Of a stretch of 64,000 nt of DNA, positions 11,864 through 62,331 are shown piece after piece. The notes under the pieces were generated by a model. It ran no database searches, was not told the DNA's origin, and saw only the letters and a list, made by a program, of their open reading frames with translations. The stretch covers positions 1,479,001 to 1,543,000 of the forward strand of contig NZ_BLPF01000001.1 of NCBI RefSeq assembly GCF_011764425.1. The letters run 5' to 3'. The translations under genes and the position numbers were made by a program. The stretch is from Phytohabitans houttuyneae. GTDB taxonomy: Bacteria; Actinomycetota; Actinomycetes; Mycobacteriales; Micromonosporaceae. How positions within the stretch are numbered: position 1 is the first letter of the stretch; each line of letters opens with the position of its first letter.

Positions 11864-12645
11864 TGCTCACGTATGTTGCCACCATCCCGTTGTCCACGCG
11901 TAGCCTGACGCGCCTTGCCGAGCTGATCCGAGCCCGACGTGTTGAGCTGGGTGGACGATGGCGGCGGCTGCCAGCGCATGAGCAGGCGTTGATGACGCTG
12001 GCCCACCTGCGCAACGGCGACACCCTGGTGAGGCTGGCGGTCGGGTTCGCGGTGTCGGTCAGCACCGTGTGGCGGTACCTGCGCGAAGCGATCGACCTAC
12101 TCGCCGCCCTGGCCCCTGACCTGTCCCAGGCGGCCGATCGGGCCGGTCGGCTGGCGTACGCGATCATCGACGGCACACTGATCCCGATCGACCGAGTCGC
12201 CGACCAGCGGCCTTACTACTCGGGAAAGCACAAACGGCACGGTGTAAACGTGCAGGTCCTGGCCGACGCGGCCGGCCGGCTCGTGTGGGCCTCGCCAGCA
12301 CTGCCCGGCGCGGTCCACGACCTGACCGCCGCCCGTACCCACGGCCTGATCAACGCCCTGACCAGGGTGAACGTGATGACGTTCGCGGACAAGGCGTACC
12401 AGGGCGCCGGCGGCACTATCTGGACGCCGTTCAAACGACAGCCGAACCGGCCGCGGCTGTCCAAGCGGCAAAGATCAGTCAACCGCCAGCACGCCAAGAT
12501 CCGCGCGCTTGGCGAACGTGCGGTAGCCACCCTCAAGACCTGGAAAGTGCTGGCCAAGCTGCACTGCAGCCCACACCGCGCCACCGCCATCGTCCAAGCG
12601 ATCCAGGTCCTCCAACACACCGAAGACGACCGCTACCCACGATGA
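11863..12645 (+). CDS. ISa transposase (DDE_4 / IS5-type), copy 1
   Basis: 260 residues from TTG 11863. An N-terminal helix-turn-helix region (NGDTLVRLAVGFAVSVSTVW) precedes the catalytic core. Likely DDE residues lie in AYAIIDGTLIPIDRVADQRP, in NVMTFADKAYQGAG and in the C-terminal helix near VNRQHAKIRALGERAVATLK. The PYYSGKHKRHGVNVQ motif is typical of DDE_Tnp_4 (HARBI1-like) transposases. Length is normal and the gene is intact. It is identical to the gene at 35451-36233, which suggests recent movement. Confidence 0.9.
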   Translation: MLTYVATIPLSTRSLTRLAELIRARRVELGGRWRRLPAHEQALMTLAHLRNGDTLVRLAVGFAVSVSTVWRYLREAIDLLAALAPDLSQAADRAGRLAYAIIDGTLIPIDRVADQRPYYSGKHKRHGVNVQVLADAAGRLVWASPALPGAVHDLTAARTHGLINALTRVNVMTFADKAYQGAGGTIWTPFKRQPNRPRLSKRQRSVNRQHAKIRALGERAVATLKTWKVLAKLHCSPHRATAIVQAIQVLQHTEDDRYPR

Positions 12646-28747: not shown

Positions 28748-29019
28748 TCAGCGGGAAATCTGGCTCAGCGGGGGGCCATGGAACGATGCGGCCGTGTCGC
28801 GCAGCTGCTGCGCGCGTTCCCGCAGCCAATGGCCGATCTTGTCCGGGTCGTAGCTTTCCTGCGCCTGTCGGTCTGCGGCCTGGGCGAGGTTGTCGAAGAA
28901 GCGCGCCAGGTAGATCAGCGTGTCGGTCGCGCAGAGCATTGGTTCCTCAAGATTGATGCCGAGCGTGGCCGGCCGGTGCTCGGCTGTCGTCGCTTCGGCG
29001 AGCGCGGCCGCCGTCTGAC
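28748..29019 (-). pseudogene. Hypothetical gene cut at its 5' end by ISc
   Basis: The frame reads TAAALAEATTAEHRPATLGI, NLEEPMLCATDTLIYLARFF, DNLAQAADRQAQESYDPDKI, a helical acidic domain of unknown family. The beginning is missing at the IS junction (TTA at 29020-29022). Confidence 0.5.
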
Positions 29020-29022
29020 TTA

Positions 29023-29901
29023 GGCCGTGTCTCACTTGGTCGCCTTGAGCAGGCGGCGATAGGTGAGCAGGGTGCAGGCAAGGTCGGCGAAGGCTTGGAA
29101 ATGTTCGGCTTTGCGGTCGTAGCGGCGTACGAGGCGGCGGTTGCGTAGCAACCAGTTCAGGCATGCTTCGACGATCCAGCGGTGCCGGCCGAGGCGTTCG
29201 GAGGACTCGACGCCTTTGCGGGCGATCCGCACGACTATGCCACGGCGGCGGACCTCGGCGCGCAGGACCGGCTGGTCGTAGGCCTTGTCCGCGTGCAGCT
29301 TGTCCGGCCGCCATCGAGGCCGCCCCCGGCGTCCGCGGATCGGGGCGACAGAGTCCAGCAGCGGGATCAGCAACTGGGAGTCGTGGGTGTTCGCGGCGGA
29401 GATCAGGCAGGTCAGGGGTACACCACGGCGGTCACACAGTATGTGTATCTTGCTGCCTGGTTTGCCGCGGTCAACCGGATTTGGCCCGGTGAGGTCCCCC
29501 TTTTCTCGGCCCGTACCGAGATCGAGTCGACCACCGCCCGAGACCAGTCGATCTCGCTGATGACACCGAGTCCGTGCAGGAACTGCTGGTGCAGTTGCTC
29601 CCACAGCCCAGCGACGGTCCACTGCGTAAACCGGCGGTGTGCCGTGGACCGGCTGACGCCGAACAACTGGGCGGGCAGCTTCCACCACGAGCAACCGGCC
29701 TGAACCAGGTACACGATCGCCGCGAGCACGGCCCGATCGTCCGCACGACGCTTCCCGCCACCCTGCCGACGACGCGCCTGTACCGGGATCAACGGCTGCG
29801 CGACCTGCCAGAAGTCATCCGGCGCCCACGTCCGAATCATGTCCTCCACCACGAACGAGGATCATGCCGCAGCCCAGCGATCCTCCATCTAGGACACGCC
29901 C
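29023..29901. mobile_element. ISc copy 1 (IS5 family, two overlapping frames)
   Basis: 879 bp, same length as copy 2 at 40301-41179 but inverted relative to it. Ends are GGCCGTGTCTCACTT and, inward from the other side, GGGCGTGTCCTAGATGG. A TTA lies on both sides (29020-29022 and 29902-29904), consistent with a 3-bp target duplication. The right flank is the truncated group II intron; the left flank is an unrelated gene, so a deletion preceded or accompanied insertion. Confidence 0.88.
29032..29852 (-). CDS. ISc transposase, produced by frameshift of two ORFs (copy 1)
   Basis: ORF A (29412-29852) begins MIRTWAPDDFWQVAQPLIPV, with QAGCSWWKLPAQLFGVSRST, and carries the first catalytic Asp in DWSRAVVDSISVRAEKRGTS. 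ORF B (ending 29032) continues in the -1 frame: GPNPVDRGKPGSKIHILCDR, LHADKAYDQPVLRAEVRRRG and RWIVEACLNWLLRNRRLVRR with the remaining Asp and Glu. The frames switch at an A4G5 run (GAAAAGGGGGAC). The same run and both frames are preserved in copy 2, so a programmed -1 frameshift is likely, as known for several IS5 groups. Confidence 0.85.
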
Positions 29902-30287
29902 TTAGCAAGATCAGACTGTACGTGCGGGTGCGGGTGGCGTTGTTCATCAGCAAGCGGTACCGCCGCAGCCGGCACTTCGGCCGTCGGGCGTTGCTGCATT
30001 TCACGCCTAACGAGTTCGGTCTGATCAGCCTTTACGGGATCGTCGTGCAACCCAGGGCTGGCAAGCCCTGGCGGGACAAGCCGAATGCCGGCGGTGAACG
30101 ACGTCGGTAAGCCGTGTGCGGGAGAACCGCACGCACGGTTTGACGGGCGGGAGCTGGAAACGGAGCACCACCGCGGTCACGGCCACGGCAGTGGGACAGC
30201 CTGATGGGGAAACCTCAGGAATCGTGAAGGCTGCCGGGCCTACCACCACGGACACGCCACCGCGCCAGTTCCCGACCCTCCATCGTG
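29902..30287 (+). mobile_element. Group II intron 3' fragment (maturase end, domains V-VI)
   Basis: 29902-30110 encodes the last part of the intron protein (KIRLYVRVRVALFISKRYRR; GLISLYGIVVQPRAGKPWRD). Domain V follows at 30110-30141 as a hairpin starting AAGCCGTGTGCGG and ending CCGCACGCACGGTTT. The fragment ends at CCCTCC, immediately before ATCGTGGG of ISa copy 3. It matches the intact intron at 36351-38475, but its first 80 percent is gone, replaced by ISc. Confidence 0.82.
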
Positions 30288-30424
30288 GGTTGGGGTCGTT
30301 GGAGTCCTGGTCAGCGGGGGCGTGTCGGTGCTCCACATAGGACGAGACTCCCAATAGGACAGCAGTCGACCAAAACGACAGCCCTGTCCCGGGAGTCTCG
30401 TTGCTCACGTATGTTGCCTGTGAG

Positions 30425-30640
30425 GATGATCGGGCGCCGCTTCGAGTCTGGGTTTGACCCGTATGTTGCCTGGCCTTGATGGCCTTGATGGTGATCCGTC
30501 GGCCCGGTCTTGAGGCGGTGTATGGCGTGGCTGACTCGGCTCGGAGCGTGTCCGGATAGGGGCTTGGCCCTGGTGACCCGTCACAGGTCTGACCGCTCAC
30601 GGCCGACCGGCGCGCTGTCGACCCGTCGTCGTTCGGATCA
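30425..30640 (+). ncRNA. Putative IS110 bridge RNA
   Basis: In the noncoding left end, CGTATGTTGCC (30460-30470) equals the left target flank (30408-30418), and GATGGTG (30487-30493) is the complement of the right target flank CACCATC (31751-31757). Farther along, ATAGGGGC (30556-30563) equals the element's right end (31741-31748), and TCACA (30581-30585) is the complement of its left end TGTGA (30419-30423). This order (target left, target right, donor left, donor right) is the layout of known bridge-RNA guide loops. The RNA boundaries are guesses. Confidence 0.7.
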
Positions 30641-30655
30641 GGAGCAGCCCTCGCC

Positions 30656-31735
30656 GTGACCAGCATGCCGTCGAAACCTGAGCAATACCCGTACGTTGTC
30701 GTAGGCGTCGACACGCACAAGGACGTGCACGTCGCCGCAGTGTTAAGCCCGCTGGGCGCGCTGCTGGGCACTATGTCCTTCCCGACCACTAGGGACGGCT
30801 ACCTGGGGTTGGTCGAGTGGGCTACGGGTTTCGGGGTGGTGCGTCGGGCCGGCGTCGAGGGCACCGGCTCGTACGGAGCCGCGCTTGCCCGCGTGCTGCG
30901 CCAAGCCGGGATCGACGTTATCGAGATCAACCGGCCGGACCGGGCGGCGCGTCGCCGGCGTGGCAAGACCGACGCGGTCGACGCCGAGGCAGCAGCCCGA
31001 TCAGTGCTGGCTGGTCAGGCGAGTGTCATACCGAAGACCGGCGAGGGACCTGTCGAGGCGATCCGCGTGTTGAAGCTCGCCAAGGACTCGGCGGTCAAGG
31101 CTCGGGTGCAGGCCATCAACCAGATCCACGCGGTACTGGTCAATGCCGAGGCGGCTATGCGGGAGCAGCTGTCCTCGCTGAGTAACCGACGGTTGGTCGA
31201 GGCCTGCGCCCGGCTGGATCCGGCAGTCCACGACGGCGCGACCGCCGTTGTGGTCTACGCCCTGACGCGGCTCGCGCAGCGCATCCAGTTCCTCATGCAA
31301 GAGATCCGCGAGGTGCAACGACGGCTCACCGCCGCTGTCAAGGCCACCGCGCCCCGGCTCCTGGAGGTAAGTGGCATCGGTCCCGATTGCGCCGCCACGC
31401 TGCTCGTGGCGGCCGGTGACAACCCGCACCGGTTGGCCAGCGAGGCCTCCTTCGCAGCGCTGTGCGGAGTGAGCCCGGTTGAGGCATCGTCAGGCAAGGT
31501 CCAACGCCACCGTCTCAACCGCGGCGGCCACCGCCAGGCGAACGCCGCTCTCTTCCGCGCCGTGCTGACCCGCCTGCGGTGGGACACGCGAACACGCGAA
31601 TATTTGCAACGACGTACGACCGAAGGGCTCTCCAAACGAGAGATCATTCGCTGCTTGAAGCGATACCTCGCCCGCACCGTCTACAAGGTCATCTGCACCG
31701 CGATCCCCAACCCGACAACGGCCGCGACCACTTGA
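30656..31735 (+). CDS. IS110-family transposase (bridge-RNA-guided recombinase)
   Basis: 359 residues. The frame starts at 30656 (GTG), with an ATG at 30665 also possible. The N-terminal RuvC-like DEDD domain reads YPYVVVGVDTHKDVHVAAVL, with later acidic residues in VEGTGSYGAALARVLRQAG and the DAVDAEAAARSVL motif. The C-terminal Transposase_20 domain reads RLLEVSGIGPDCAATLLVAA and AALCGVSPVEASSGKVQRHR, including the catalytic-Ser region, then LNRGGHRQANAALFRAVLTR. Full length and unbroken. Enzymes of this family use a bridge RNA to choose donor and target. Confidence 0.92.
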   Translation: MTSMPSKPEQYPYVVVGVDTHKDVHVAAVLSPLGALLGTMSFPTTRDGYLGLVEWATGFGVVRRAGVEGTGSYGAALARVLRQAGIDVIEINRPDRAARRRRGKTDAVDAEAAARSVLAGQASVIPKTGEGPVEAIRVLKLAKDSAVKARVQAINQIHAVLVNAEAAMREQLSSLSNRRLVEACARLDPAVHDGATAVVVYALTRLAQRIQFLMQEIREVQRRLTAAVKATAPRLLEVSGIGPDCAATLLVAAGDNPHRLASEASFAALCGVSPVEASSGKVQRHRLNRGGHRQANAALFRAVLTRLRWDTRTREYLQRRTTEGLSKREIIRCLKRYLARTVYKVICTAIPNPTTAATT

Positions 31736-31750
31736 CATCTATAGGGGCAT

Positions 31751-32515
31751 CACCATCCCGTTGTCCACGCGCAGCCTGACGCGCCTTGCCGAGCTGATCC
31801 GAACCCGACGCGCCGAGTTGGGCGGCCGTTGGCGGCGGCTACCAGCACACGAGCAGGCATTGATGACGCTGGCCCACCTACGCAACGGCGACACCCTCAC
31901 GAGGCTGGCGGTCGGGTTCGCCGTATCAGTCACCACCGCCTGGCGGTACCTGCGCGAGGCGATCGACCTGCTCGCCACCCTCGCCCCGGACCTGGCGCAG
32001 GCGGCAGCTAGGGCCGCCGCGCTGGCTTACGCGATCATCGACGGCACGCTGATCCCGATCGACCGGGTCGCCGACCAGCGGCCCTACTACTCAGGAAAGC
32101 ACAAGCGGCACGGCGTGAACGTGCAGGTCCTGGCCGACCCAGCCGGCCTGCTGGTGTGGGCATCGCCCGCGTTGCCCGGCGCGGTCCACGACCTGACCGC
32201 CGCCCGTACTCACGGCCTGATCGACGCCCTGACCAGCGGCGAGGTGATGACGTTCGCGGACAAGGCGTATCAAGGCGCCGGCGGCACTATCTGGACGCCG
32301 TTCAAGCGACAGCCGAACCGCCGAGGCTGTCGAAGCGGCAACGATCAGTCAACCGGCAACACGCCAAGATCCGCGCCCTCGGCGAACGAGCCGTAGCCAC
32401 CCTCAAGAACTGGAAACTGCTGGCCAAGCTGCACTGCAGCCCACACCGCGCCACCACGATCGTCCAAGCGATCCTCGTCCTCCAACACACCGAAGACGAC
32501 CGCTACCCACGATGA
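31751..32515 (+). pseudogene. ISa copy 3 transposase, 3' part, frameshifted
   Basis: The frame from TTG 31761 matches copies 1 and 2 (NGDTLTRLAVGFAVSVTTAW; PYYSGKHKRHGVNVQVLADP; ADKAYQGAGGTIWTPFKRQP) until about 32327, where one G of the CCGG seen in copy 1 is missing. The rest continues in another frame (RLSKRQRSVNRQHAKIRALG). The first codons lie before the IS110 insertion. Confidence 0.85.
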
Positions 32516-32541
32516 AAACGGCTCAATATCAGGCGAGCACG

Positions 32542-37894: not shown

Positions 37895-38755
37895 CGGGCC
37901 CCTCCTCAACATCACACGCGTCGACGAAGCAGCGGCCCTTCCCTCACCGGCGGTTGTGTTGTCCGCTCGGCTCGATCGGTACTACGGCCGCCTCCGACTC
38001 CCTCCCGGCCGGTAATCCACTTCCCGAGGTCATCGGTTATAGGACACCACGCTTCCGGCAACAAACTCCGCAGGTTGCCGGGCCGGGGAGGGTCTCCTCA
38101 GTTCCCGCCGTCACTATCTGAACGTTCCGCGCCCCATACGCCGGAGAGTCCCTCGCGGCTGCAATCCAGGAGCTACACCGCTTCCATGGCCTTCACCCCG
38201 ATTCCGAAGGGCTCGGCACTCCCCACGCCACCCTCACAGGCAGCTGAGTAACGACGCCGCAGGCTTCGCTTCACGCTACGGACCGCTCAGTCGCTCCCCC
38301 TATCACAGGGCCTTCGACACTGGGCTCCGACCCCGCCCGTTTCCAGACGAGACCGCCAGTCTGCTACCGGGCCTCCTGGCAGCTACCCGGACCGGACTTC
38401 CACCGGCAAGCGACGACGAGCTTACGAACGAAGATCAACCTCCTACACGATCAACCTCCGCTCTGCTGGGCGCACGAAAATGGCTCATTGGAGTTGGCGT
38501 CGAAGTCGAAGGCGCGCAGGGGCTTGTCCCGGGGGAACGCGGCAGCCTTGATCCGGCGTTCGGAGCGGCGGCGGGCCCGGTCGTCGCACTCGGCCATGAG
38601 CAGCTCGGCGAGGAACCCGCGGTAGGTCATCTGTTCGCGGCTGGCGGATTCGGCGAGGTCGGGGAACTGGGACCGGATCGTGGGTAGGCGCAGTAGCCGG
38701 CAGGCGGAGTCGATCGCGGCGTCGGCGGCTTGTTCGGTGAGTCCACGATGGCGGG

Positions 38756-40220: not shown

Positions 40221-40300
40221 TTCTGCATGTCACGCCACCACGCCGCGACGGCCGTGATCATCGATCTCCACCCGGACCACCAACCACCCGGAACCACTTA

Positions 40301-41179
40301 GGGCGTGTCCTAGATGGAGGATCGCTGGGCTGCGGCATGATCCTCGTTCGTGGTGGAGGACATGATTCGGACGTGGGCGCCGGATGACTTCTGGCAGGTC
40401 GCGCAGCCGTTGATCCCGGTACAGGCGCGTCGTCGGCAGGGTGGCGGGAAGCGTCGTGCGGACGATCGGGCCGTGCTCGCGGCGATCGTGTACCTGGTTC
40501 AGGCCGGTTGCTCGTGGTGGAAGCTGCCCGCCCAGTTGTTCGGCGTCAGCCGGTCCACGGCACACCGCCGGTTTACGCAGTGGACCGTCGCTGGGCTGTG
40601 GGAGCAACTGCACCAGCAGTTCCTGCACGGACTCGGTGTCATCAGCGAGATCGACTGGTCTCGGGCGGTGGTCGACTCGATCTCGGTACGGGCCGAGAAA
40701 AGGGGGACCTCACCGGGCCAAATCCGGTTGACCGCGGCAAACCAGGCAGCAAGATACACATACTGTGTGACCGCCGTGGTGTACCCCTGACCTGCCTGAT
40801 CTCCGCCGCGAACACCCACGACTCCCAGTTGCTGATCCCGCTGCTGGACTCTGTCGCCCCGATCCGCGGACGCCGGGGGCGGCCTCGATGGCGGCCGGAC
40901 AAGCTGCACGCGGACAAGGCCTACGACCAGCCGGTCCTGCGCGCCGAGGTCCGCCGCCGTGGCATAGTCGTGCGGATCGCCCGCAAAGGCGTCGAGTCCT
41001 CCGAACGCCTCGGCCGGCACCGCTGGATCGTCGAAGCATGCCTGAACTGGTTGCTACGCAACCGCCGCCTCGTACGCCGCTACGACCGCAAAGCCGAACA
41101 TTTCCAAGCCTTCGCCGACCTTGCCTGCACCCTGCTCACCTATCGCCGCCTGCTCAAGGCGACCAAGTGAGACACGGCC
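40301..41179. mobile_element. ISc copy 2
   Basis: 879 bp, opposite orientation to copy 1 with the same ends. The flanks are TTA on the left and TAA on the right, so a clean duplication is not seen. It removes the start of the integrase gene beside it. Confidence 0.88.
40350..41170 (+). CDS. ISc transposase, produced by frameshift (copy 2)
   Basis: ORF A 40350-40790 and ORF B ending 41170 have the same protein sequences as in copy 1. The switch point is the A4G5 run at 40698-40706 (GAGAAAAGGGGGACC): 0 frame AEKRGTSPG, -1 frame EKGDLTGPN. The joined protein has DSISV, LHADKAYDQ and VEACLNWLLRNRR as catalytic blocks. Confidence 0.85.
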
Positions 41180-41957
41180 TAAGACGCTGAGCACCCGGAC
41201 CCTGGGCGACCTTCTCGCCATCGGTAACCGCGCCACCAACCGCGCCATGGCACGCGACAAGGTAAGACGAAACGTCTTCGCGCTCTGCAAGGTCCCCAAA
41301 GGGCAACCCGGCCGGCCATCCAAGTCCCTCACCCTCGAACAGACCCGGGCTCTACTTACCGCCGCCGAGGGCGATCCGATGGAGGCGTACATAGCCGCAT
41401 CGGTGTTGGTCGGTGCCCGGACTGAGGAGCTGCGCGCACTGGGCTGGGACCATACCGACCTAGACGGTCGGCCCGACGAACAGCCGCCCGCACCGCCGGC
41501 CGTGATGGTCTGGCATTCGGTCCGGGAGGGCGGCGACACCAAGACCAAGAAGTCGCGGCGGTCCCTCGCGCTTCCGCTCCGCTGCATCGCAGCTCTCCGA
41601 CGTCGCCGGGAACAGCAGGATCGGGACCGCGACCGGGCGGGTGACCGGTGGCAGGAACACGGCCTTGTATTCACCACGCGGATCGGTACCCCGTTGGATG
41701 CGGCTAACGTCCGTCGCGGGTTCCGGCGGGTGGTCAAGAAGGCCGGGCTAGACGCCAAGGACTGGACCCCTCGCGAACTGCGCCACAGCTTCGTGTCCCT
41801 GCTCTCCGACAGCGGCGTCAGCATCGAAGACATCGCCGACCTGTGCGGGCACTCCGGCACGACCGTGACCGAGGCGGTGTACCGACACCAGCTCCGACCG
41901 ATCCTGCTCCGCGGCGCGACCACCATGGACGCGATCTTCGGTCCCGGCGGGTCGTAG
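41180..41957 (+). pseudogene. Site-specific integrase beside tRNA-Val, 5' end lost
   Basis: About 258 residues remain: LLAIGNRATNRAMARDKVRR, GRPSKSLTLEQTRALLTAAE, with the catalytic Arg in VLVGARTEELRALGWDHTDL, His-x-x-Arg in WTPRELRHSFVSLLSDSGVS, His in LCGHSGTTVTEAVYRHQLRP and Tyr in AVYRHQ. The arm and most of the core-binding domain were removed by ISc. It is probably the integrase that brought in an element at the adjacent tRNA; it is unlikely to be active now. Confidence 0.82.
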
Positions 41958-62241: not shown

Positions 62242-62331
62242 ACCCTTGCTCGCCGGCATCCGTATCCACCGATGCCGGCAGGGCGGGCGTCCGGCGGAAG
62301 TCCTCTGTTCGTTGTCATGGAAGGGACGACC

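Follow-up and report, generated by a model that had tools for sequence, protein, structure and literature searches.

The window, by which we mean the whole stretch of 64,000 nucleotides analysed here, contains an IS110-group element that interrupts a copy of another insertion sequence, ISa, and the non-coding left end of this element carries short segments matching the site it occupies. The locus thus raises the question whether these segments are the guides of a bridge RNA (seekRNA) aimed at that site. Judging from the sequence comparisons described below, the left end almost certainly encodes such an RNA, matched to the ISa insertion site. The segments named in the original prediction were all recovered at their places, correct to the base, and its bridge-RNA reading is supported by guide-flank covariation over 53 guide sets and by a covarying target-loop stem.

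The insertion itself is described by three features.

30302..30418, plus strand: left piece of an ISa copy, from alignment to ISa
30419..31750, plus strand: IS110-group element, from the split ISa alignment, its single copy and IS110 Pfam domains; the C common to both junctions is at 30418 or 31751
31751..32527, plus strand: right piece of the ISa copy, from the ISa alignment, with HTH_Tnp_4 and DDE_Tnp_4 domains (Pfam)

The element occurs in one copy in the 11.3-Mb, 5-contig genome. ISa, which we take to be of IS5 type and whose transposase shows HTH_Tnp_4 and DDE_Tnp_4 domains, has 15 matches in the same genome, five of them near-full-length and uninterrupted (L055-L059; two lie inside the window). 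In the interrupted copy, positions 1-115 of the ISa query align to 30302-30418 and positions 115-892 to 31751-32527. Since these parts overlap at position 115 only, a single base, C, is common to both junctions. The empty site leads to the same result: CACGTATGTTGCCACCATCCCG is present in 5 of 5 uninterrupted near-full-length copies, the form CACGTATGTTGCCACCATC is likewise kept by them, and compared with these copies the two junctions again have one C in common, as in a site-specific insertion with a short common core.

The coding part of the element consists of one open reading frame.

30656..31735, plus strand: DEDD recombinase, 359 aa, with GTG as the listed start (Pfam; PDB alignment)

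Its product matches PF01548, the DEDD RuvC-like domain, with an E-value of 2.8e-22 and PF02371, the C-terminal domain, with 1e-19, both being domains of IS110 transposases. It aligns with the solved IS621 transposase (PDB 8wt6) across both halves and with the ISCro4 transposase (PDB) in the C-terminal part. The DEDD and Ser positions were taken from the alignment, the roles of these residues being those usual in the family. As in the IS110 group generally, the non-coding left end is longer than the right one, with 237 nt (30419-30655) against 15 nt (31736-31750). Within it, the following candidate features were located.

30419..30655, plus strand: non-coding left end; predicted bridge RNA, modelled over 30430-30617, from a conserved scaffold in 21 left ends and a covarying fold
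30435..30458, plus strand: 5' arm of the target-loop stem (helix 1, 22 pairs; positions via alignment A2)
30460..30471, plus strand: left target guide CGTATGTTGC with core CT, identical to the left flank 30408-30418 over 11 nt
30472..30484, plus strand: short hairpin GGCC-TTGAT-GGCC between both target guides (helix 2, three of its pairs; single-sequence fold)
30487..30493, plus strand: right target guide GATGGTG, complement of CACCATC in the empty ISa site, starting 16 nt after the left guide
30498..30520, plus strand: 3' arm of the target-loop stem (helix 1; positions via alignment A2)
30556..30563, plus strand: left donor guide ATAGGGGC, identical to the element's right end at 31741-31748; varies with the right end in relatives, where placement partly depends on that
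30581..30586, plus strand: right donor guide TCACAG, complementary to CTGTGA at the left end (30418-30423); varies with the left end in relatives

The segment equal to the left target flank reads CGTATGTTGCC at 30460-30470. How often such matches arise by chance was counted on one strand at 62321 other positions of the window, taken as mock junctions. A left match of at least 11 nt to the left end was found at 6 of them and a right match of at least 7 nt at 992, and both occur jointly at one mock junction, which is the intact ISa copy at 11880. The right score of 4 given in this count for the true junction is an error from a C entered twice; the intact copy, identical in sequence, scores 7.

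A stronger test is provided by relatives in other sites. They were collected by searching the proteins of 151, 397, 394 and 354 genomes (sets that overlap), and a scan of genome contigs yielded two. The nearest relative, L070, has 71% protein identity (69% over 346 columns in another alignment). Element ends were placed by matching donor guides to ends, with the target guides unused, and the target guides were then read at anchors in the scaffold; as an exception, the upstream of two possible left ends of L009 was picked by hand. In this way, 76 of 107 loci and 8 of 9 in a later set were placed, together 84 of 116. With earlier versions of the procedure, the yield had been 50 of 55 loci whose ends were recognised, 61 of 107 and, in an overly strict form, 26 of 107. 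The 31 of 107 dropped loci had an unrecognised donor guide, an unmatched end, an unplaced left end or no loop anchors; they include L023, L052 and L053, in which the target loop can be aligned by eye, and L023 sits in an IS3 gene. The locus dropped from the later set, L131, has a stop codon in its ORF and an altered donor guide. Repeats were excluded (L042, L045, L046, L049, L051, L035, L139, L141 and L142), and the left ends of L101 and L091 are doubtful. The left guide was read one base off in L119-L122 and across a one-base offset in L076 and L137, all of which count against the test.

Over 53 distinct guide sets, left guides match their own flank in 6.58 of 8 positions on average and the flanks of others in 3.03, and right guides in 3.68 of 5 compared with 1.36; neither own-flank value was reached in 100000 permutations (0/100000 each). 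The own flank is best or tied for 39 left and 34 right guides out of 53, and the cases in which another flank does better (14 left, 19 right) count against the reading. Within the window's clade alone (21 sets), the values are 6.76 of 8 against 3.04 and 4.33 of 5 against 1.50, again with 0/100000 permutations. Resolved by position in 34 sets, own matches clearly exceed those of others at -8 to -1 and +1 to +5. Control readings over 47 sets, with the guide shifted by one base or compared with the wrong flank, gave no signal. The right guide is poor in many elements of the sister clade, e.g., 0 of 6 in L009 and L017 and 1 of 6 in L079 and L109. The original prediction further implied that the same guides should not recur unchanged in other sites; no such case was found among the relatives, and L070 has both a different guide and a different target. 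Coincidence of the left end and its flanks in GC-rich sequence has a next to negligible probability: 7-nt right matches alone are common among the mock junctions, yet the only joint match is the intact target itself, and the swap of flanks over the 53 guide sets refutes it, as relatives with other flanks carry other, matching guides.

The donor guides vary along with the element ends as well. The left donor guides ATAGGGGC, ATAGGAGC, ACAGGGGC, ACAGGAGC, AGAGGAGC and TGAGGAGC each appear both at the guide position and at the right end, and the left ends CTGTGA, CAGTGA, CAGAGA, CTGCGA, CAGTAA, CGCTTA, CGGTGA and CATTGA each go with a matching right donor guide. The arrangement expected of a bridge RNA, i.e., a target loop and then a donor loop, with guides that covary, is found here, with the donor covariation partly built in because the placement demanded a near match.

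Alignment A2 of 21 left ends from the window's clade gives a consensus fold in which a long stem surrounds both target guides and the short hairpin between them. In the target-loop stem, 13 of 22 pairs are changed on both sides. For the full structure of 41 pairs, 93.5% of the cells pair compared with 87.2% in shuffles (0 of 500 as good), and sliding the structure by 1-3 columns reduces this to 34-47%. Both target guides appear as variable blocks within an otherwise conserved loop. In the donor half (helices 3-6), 3 of 16 pairs are changed on both sides, so that support comes from conservation more than from covariation. The expectation that the guides lie in stable loops holds in part: the target guides are unpaired in a loop closed by a covarying stem, but the window RNA folded singly has an unremarkable stability (z -1.46; 14 of 200 shuffles do as well), which counts against the reading. 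A search of Rfam at the gathering score gave no match within the element. An extra TG behind the left guide, also found behind the left junction, was first read as a sign of copying; this reading was dropped because relatives with other guides carry [CT][CT]G[AG]C at that place.

It is very improbable that the left end merely picked up a piece of ISa or of the flanks, the segments then not being guides. Over 11 nt, the left segment does equal the target, as a captured piece would, but the right segment is the reverse complement and no copy. Moreover, both segments occupy fixed places of a conserved loop in relatives with different flanks, and the matches include mismatches and end near -8 and +5, as short guides should.

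The bridge-RNA reading suggests the following course of events. The element would be excised as a circle, in which a promoter would arise where the right and left ends meet and drive transcription of the left end. Two motifs are candidates for its parts.

31732..31737, plus strand: TTGACA, -35-like, in the right end and overlapping the stop codon; TTGAC recurs in relatives' joined ends
30422..30427, plus strand: GAGGAT, -10-like, in the left end, 17 nt from TTGACA once the ends are joined

By sequence alone, TTGAC is found in 78 of 84 joined ends and lies 19-21 nt from the common C in 76. A promoter across joined ends has been published for IS110 elements (PMC11208160). The resulting RNA would bind the DEDD recombinase, as expected from the family. 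The target loop would pair with CGTATGTTGC-C-ACCATC at the start of the ISa transposase gene, its left guide binding the bottom strand and its right guide the top strand, while the donor loop would pair with ATAGGGGCAT-C-TGTGA, the joined ends of the element itself. At the single common base C, target and donor would then be joined by the recombinase. Transcription, recombinase binding and catalysis are proposed here by analogy, and the element may still be active at present.

The core deserves separate comment. The donor reads C-T and the target C-A, so that CT is found at the left junction and CA at the right one. Donor and target have the second core base in common in 11 of 84 placed elements, which speaks against the reading in so far as it departs from the published IS621 core. 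We therefore regard the common core as one base here; a CT core as in IS621, with the same dinucleotide in donor, target and guides, was not observed. Of the one or two core bases proposed initially, one common C stands and a matched dinucleotide does not, the next base being T on the element side and A on the target side.

The relatives also allow us to ask what such elements hit. In a protein tree of 61 rows, the window element falls into a clade of 24 rows (support 100/98). An adjoining group of five rows (100/100) hits IS3 orfB, with rve families above the cut-off for L020, L021, L092 and L094. In the window's clade, 16 of 21 guide sets have at least one copy that lies inside the transposase gene of another IS or no more than 10 nt away from it, the criterion being a transposase Pfam family above the cut-off in a flank piece at most 10 nt from the junction. 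Six transposase types are hit according to Pfam on the flank pieces.

HTH_Tnp_4 or DDE_Tnp_4: the window element, L070, L004, L005, L072, L136
DDE_Tnp_1: L074, and L112 as a copy of the L075 guide set
OrfB_IS605: L007
DDE_3: L071, L096
HTH_Tnp_1: L076, L137, L135
DDE_Tnp_IS240: L006, L138

Two further cases are weak, namely L095, which has no Pfam match and is IS6-like by eye, and the L133 set, which enters via L140 with DDE_Tnp_IS240 under the cut-off; adding both gives 18 of 21. The sites of L095, the L133 set, L006 and L138 resemble what we take to be the terminal-repeat motif of IS6-type elements. For L097, L101 and L132, Pfam on the flank pieces found no IS. In the sister clade, a transposase match was obtained in 2 of 28 contexts (L012, L091). 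Comparing 16 of 21 with 2 of 28 gives a Fisher p of 6.8e-7, which is not to be read as a probability because the rows are related and the clades were scanned differently: pieces for the window's clade were picked by eye with E up to 0.01, those for the sister clade by length (at most five junction-touching pieces of at least 45 aa per context) with E up to 0.001.

The window element and L070 occupy the same position close to the start of ISa-like genes that have diverged (LTYVA/TIPLSTRSL and IAYRA/MLDVPREL), and the left guide of each, TATGTTGC and TATCGTGC, respectively, equals its own target in 8 of 8 positions. L131 (69%) has the right flank CACGATCCCGTTGTCC, again an ISa-like start, and its right guide GATCGTG is the exact complement of this flank over 7 nt; its left end is unplaced.

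Taken jointly, these findings might mean that the window's clade is an RNA-guided transposon lineage specialised on other transposons, repeatedly re-aimed and following the divergence of its host ISs, a proposal on which we are evenly divided. On this view, the bridge RNAs of the clade would be directed to conserved codons or to terminal repeats in many types of IS, namely IS5-type (three places), a second IS5-like type, IS3 orfA, IS630, TnpB and IS6, and would have the window element, L070 and L131 (right side only) on diverged ISa-like genes with correspondingly diverged guides. If so, the elements of the clade would double as guide-directed transposon suppressors, since insertion breaks the transposase gene or the end of the host IS.

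For this clade pattern, another account is possible, if rather doubtful: ISs are dispensable, clustered and multiplying, so that insertions into them survive and hitchhike, and the guides have no special aim at ISs. The rows are indeed related and not independent, and one copy of the G369 element (L075) lies in a stretch without a Pfam match. Four copies of a 66-68% relative, G006 (L035-L038), sit in the same host IS; being 99.6-99.8% identical over about 2264 bp including that IS, they look like hitchhikers carried by it. Against this account, the guides match conserved IS codons or ends, elements inserted in different IS types have different guides, and the sister-clade elements come from the same searches and rarely show a transposase context, though they were scanned differently. 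The clade pattern, with guides that track a diverged host IS, is less expected than the element itself.

A separate observation concerns the sister clade, where the left guide of many IS110 elements ends in TGA and the insertion lies directly behind a TGA. The triplet is found just left of the core in 25 placed elements, in 13 of which (L013, L018, L019, L047, L048, L079, L083, L123, L124, L125, L127, L128 and L129) the frame is open for at least 170 codons with a third-position GC of at least 0.88. Such a long open frame with high third-position GC makes the TGA a probable stop codon, and the insertion would spare the gene that it ends.

Among known systems, IS4321 and IS5075 are reportedly of the IS110 family and aimed at part of a different mobile element, as the window element is. 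For IS110 elements, bridge RNAs that covary with target and donor have been published by Durrant et al. 2024 (PMC11208160), on the basis of 2,201 donor and 5,511 target pairs. Compared with IS621 as described there, the window element has the same DEDD recombinase with PF01548 and PF02371, a long left end, a target loop ahead of the donor loop, left guides of top-strand sense with right guides of the opposite sense, and, as a candidate read from sequence, a promoter across the joined ends. It differs in its target, REP elements for IS621 and the start of an IS5-type transposase gene here, and in its core, CT there and one common C here with the next base differing between donor and target. An IS110 element of Kocuria is mentioned in PMC12500396.

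That the pair of guide and target is aimed at another IS is supported by the site in ISa, but such targeting is not new: according to Siddiquee et al. 2024 (PMC11187229), ISEc21 is an IS110 element that targets codons of an IS3 transposase. The window element resembles ISEc21 and ISMch6, which belong to the IS110 group and are likewise aimed at a conserved stretch in the transposase gene of a different IS. Their target is the IS3 family around the second D of DDE, with a relative that is naturally re-aimed; here, host IS and codons are others, and the hits of a single clade cover at least six transposase types. With bridge RNAs and IS-targeting IS110 elements such as ISEc21 already published, the element belongs to a known kind. 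An IS110 clade aimed at many IS types was not found in the literature searched, a weak negative as the search covered few subscription papers and no bioRxiv preprints. The locus offers a natural guide-target pair together with five empty target copies in one genome, in a clade whose guides, scaffolds and targets can be compared stepwise. In such a setting, it is testable how a natural bridge RNA gains a new target and whether the RNA follows a drifting one. A one-base core and many natural guides should be useful to builders of bridge-recombinase tools.

Finally, some observations were made on the surroundings of the interrupted ISa copy. Its right piece contains two overlapping ORFs (211 and 119 aa) at 31761-32515 where an intact copy has one of 260 aa, and thus looks frameshifted besides interrupted. 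Upstream of the copy, the 3' end of a group II intron (RF00029, barely over the gathering score) was found at 30107-30177, and a further group II intron match (RF02003, 99.2 bits) lies on the minus strand at 38271-38409. The stretch 29901-30418 matches 36729-36216 at 92.5%, which indicates an upstream context common to two ISa copies. Another IS-like stretch is present in two copies of opposite orientation, 29019-29905 and 40297-41183, which are 99.9% identical over 887 bp.
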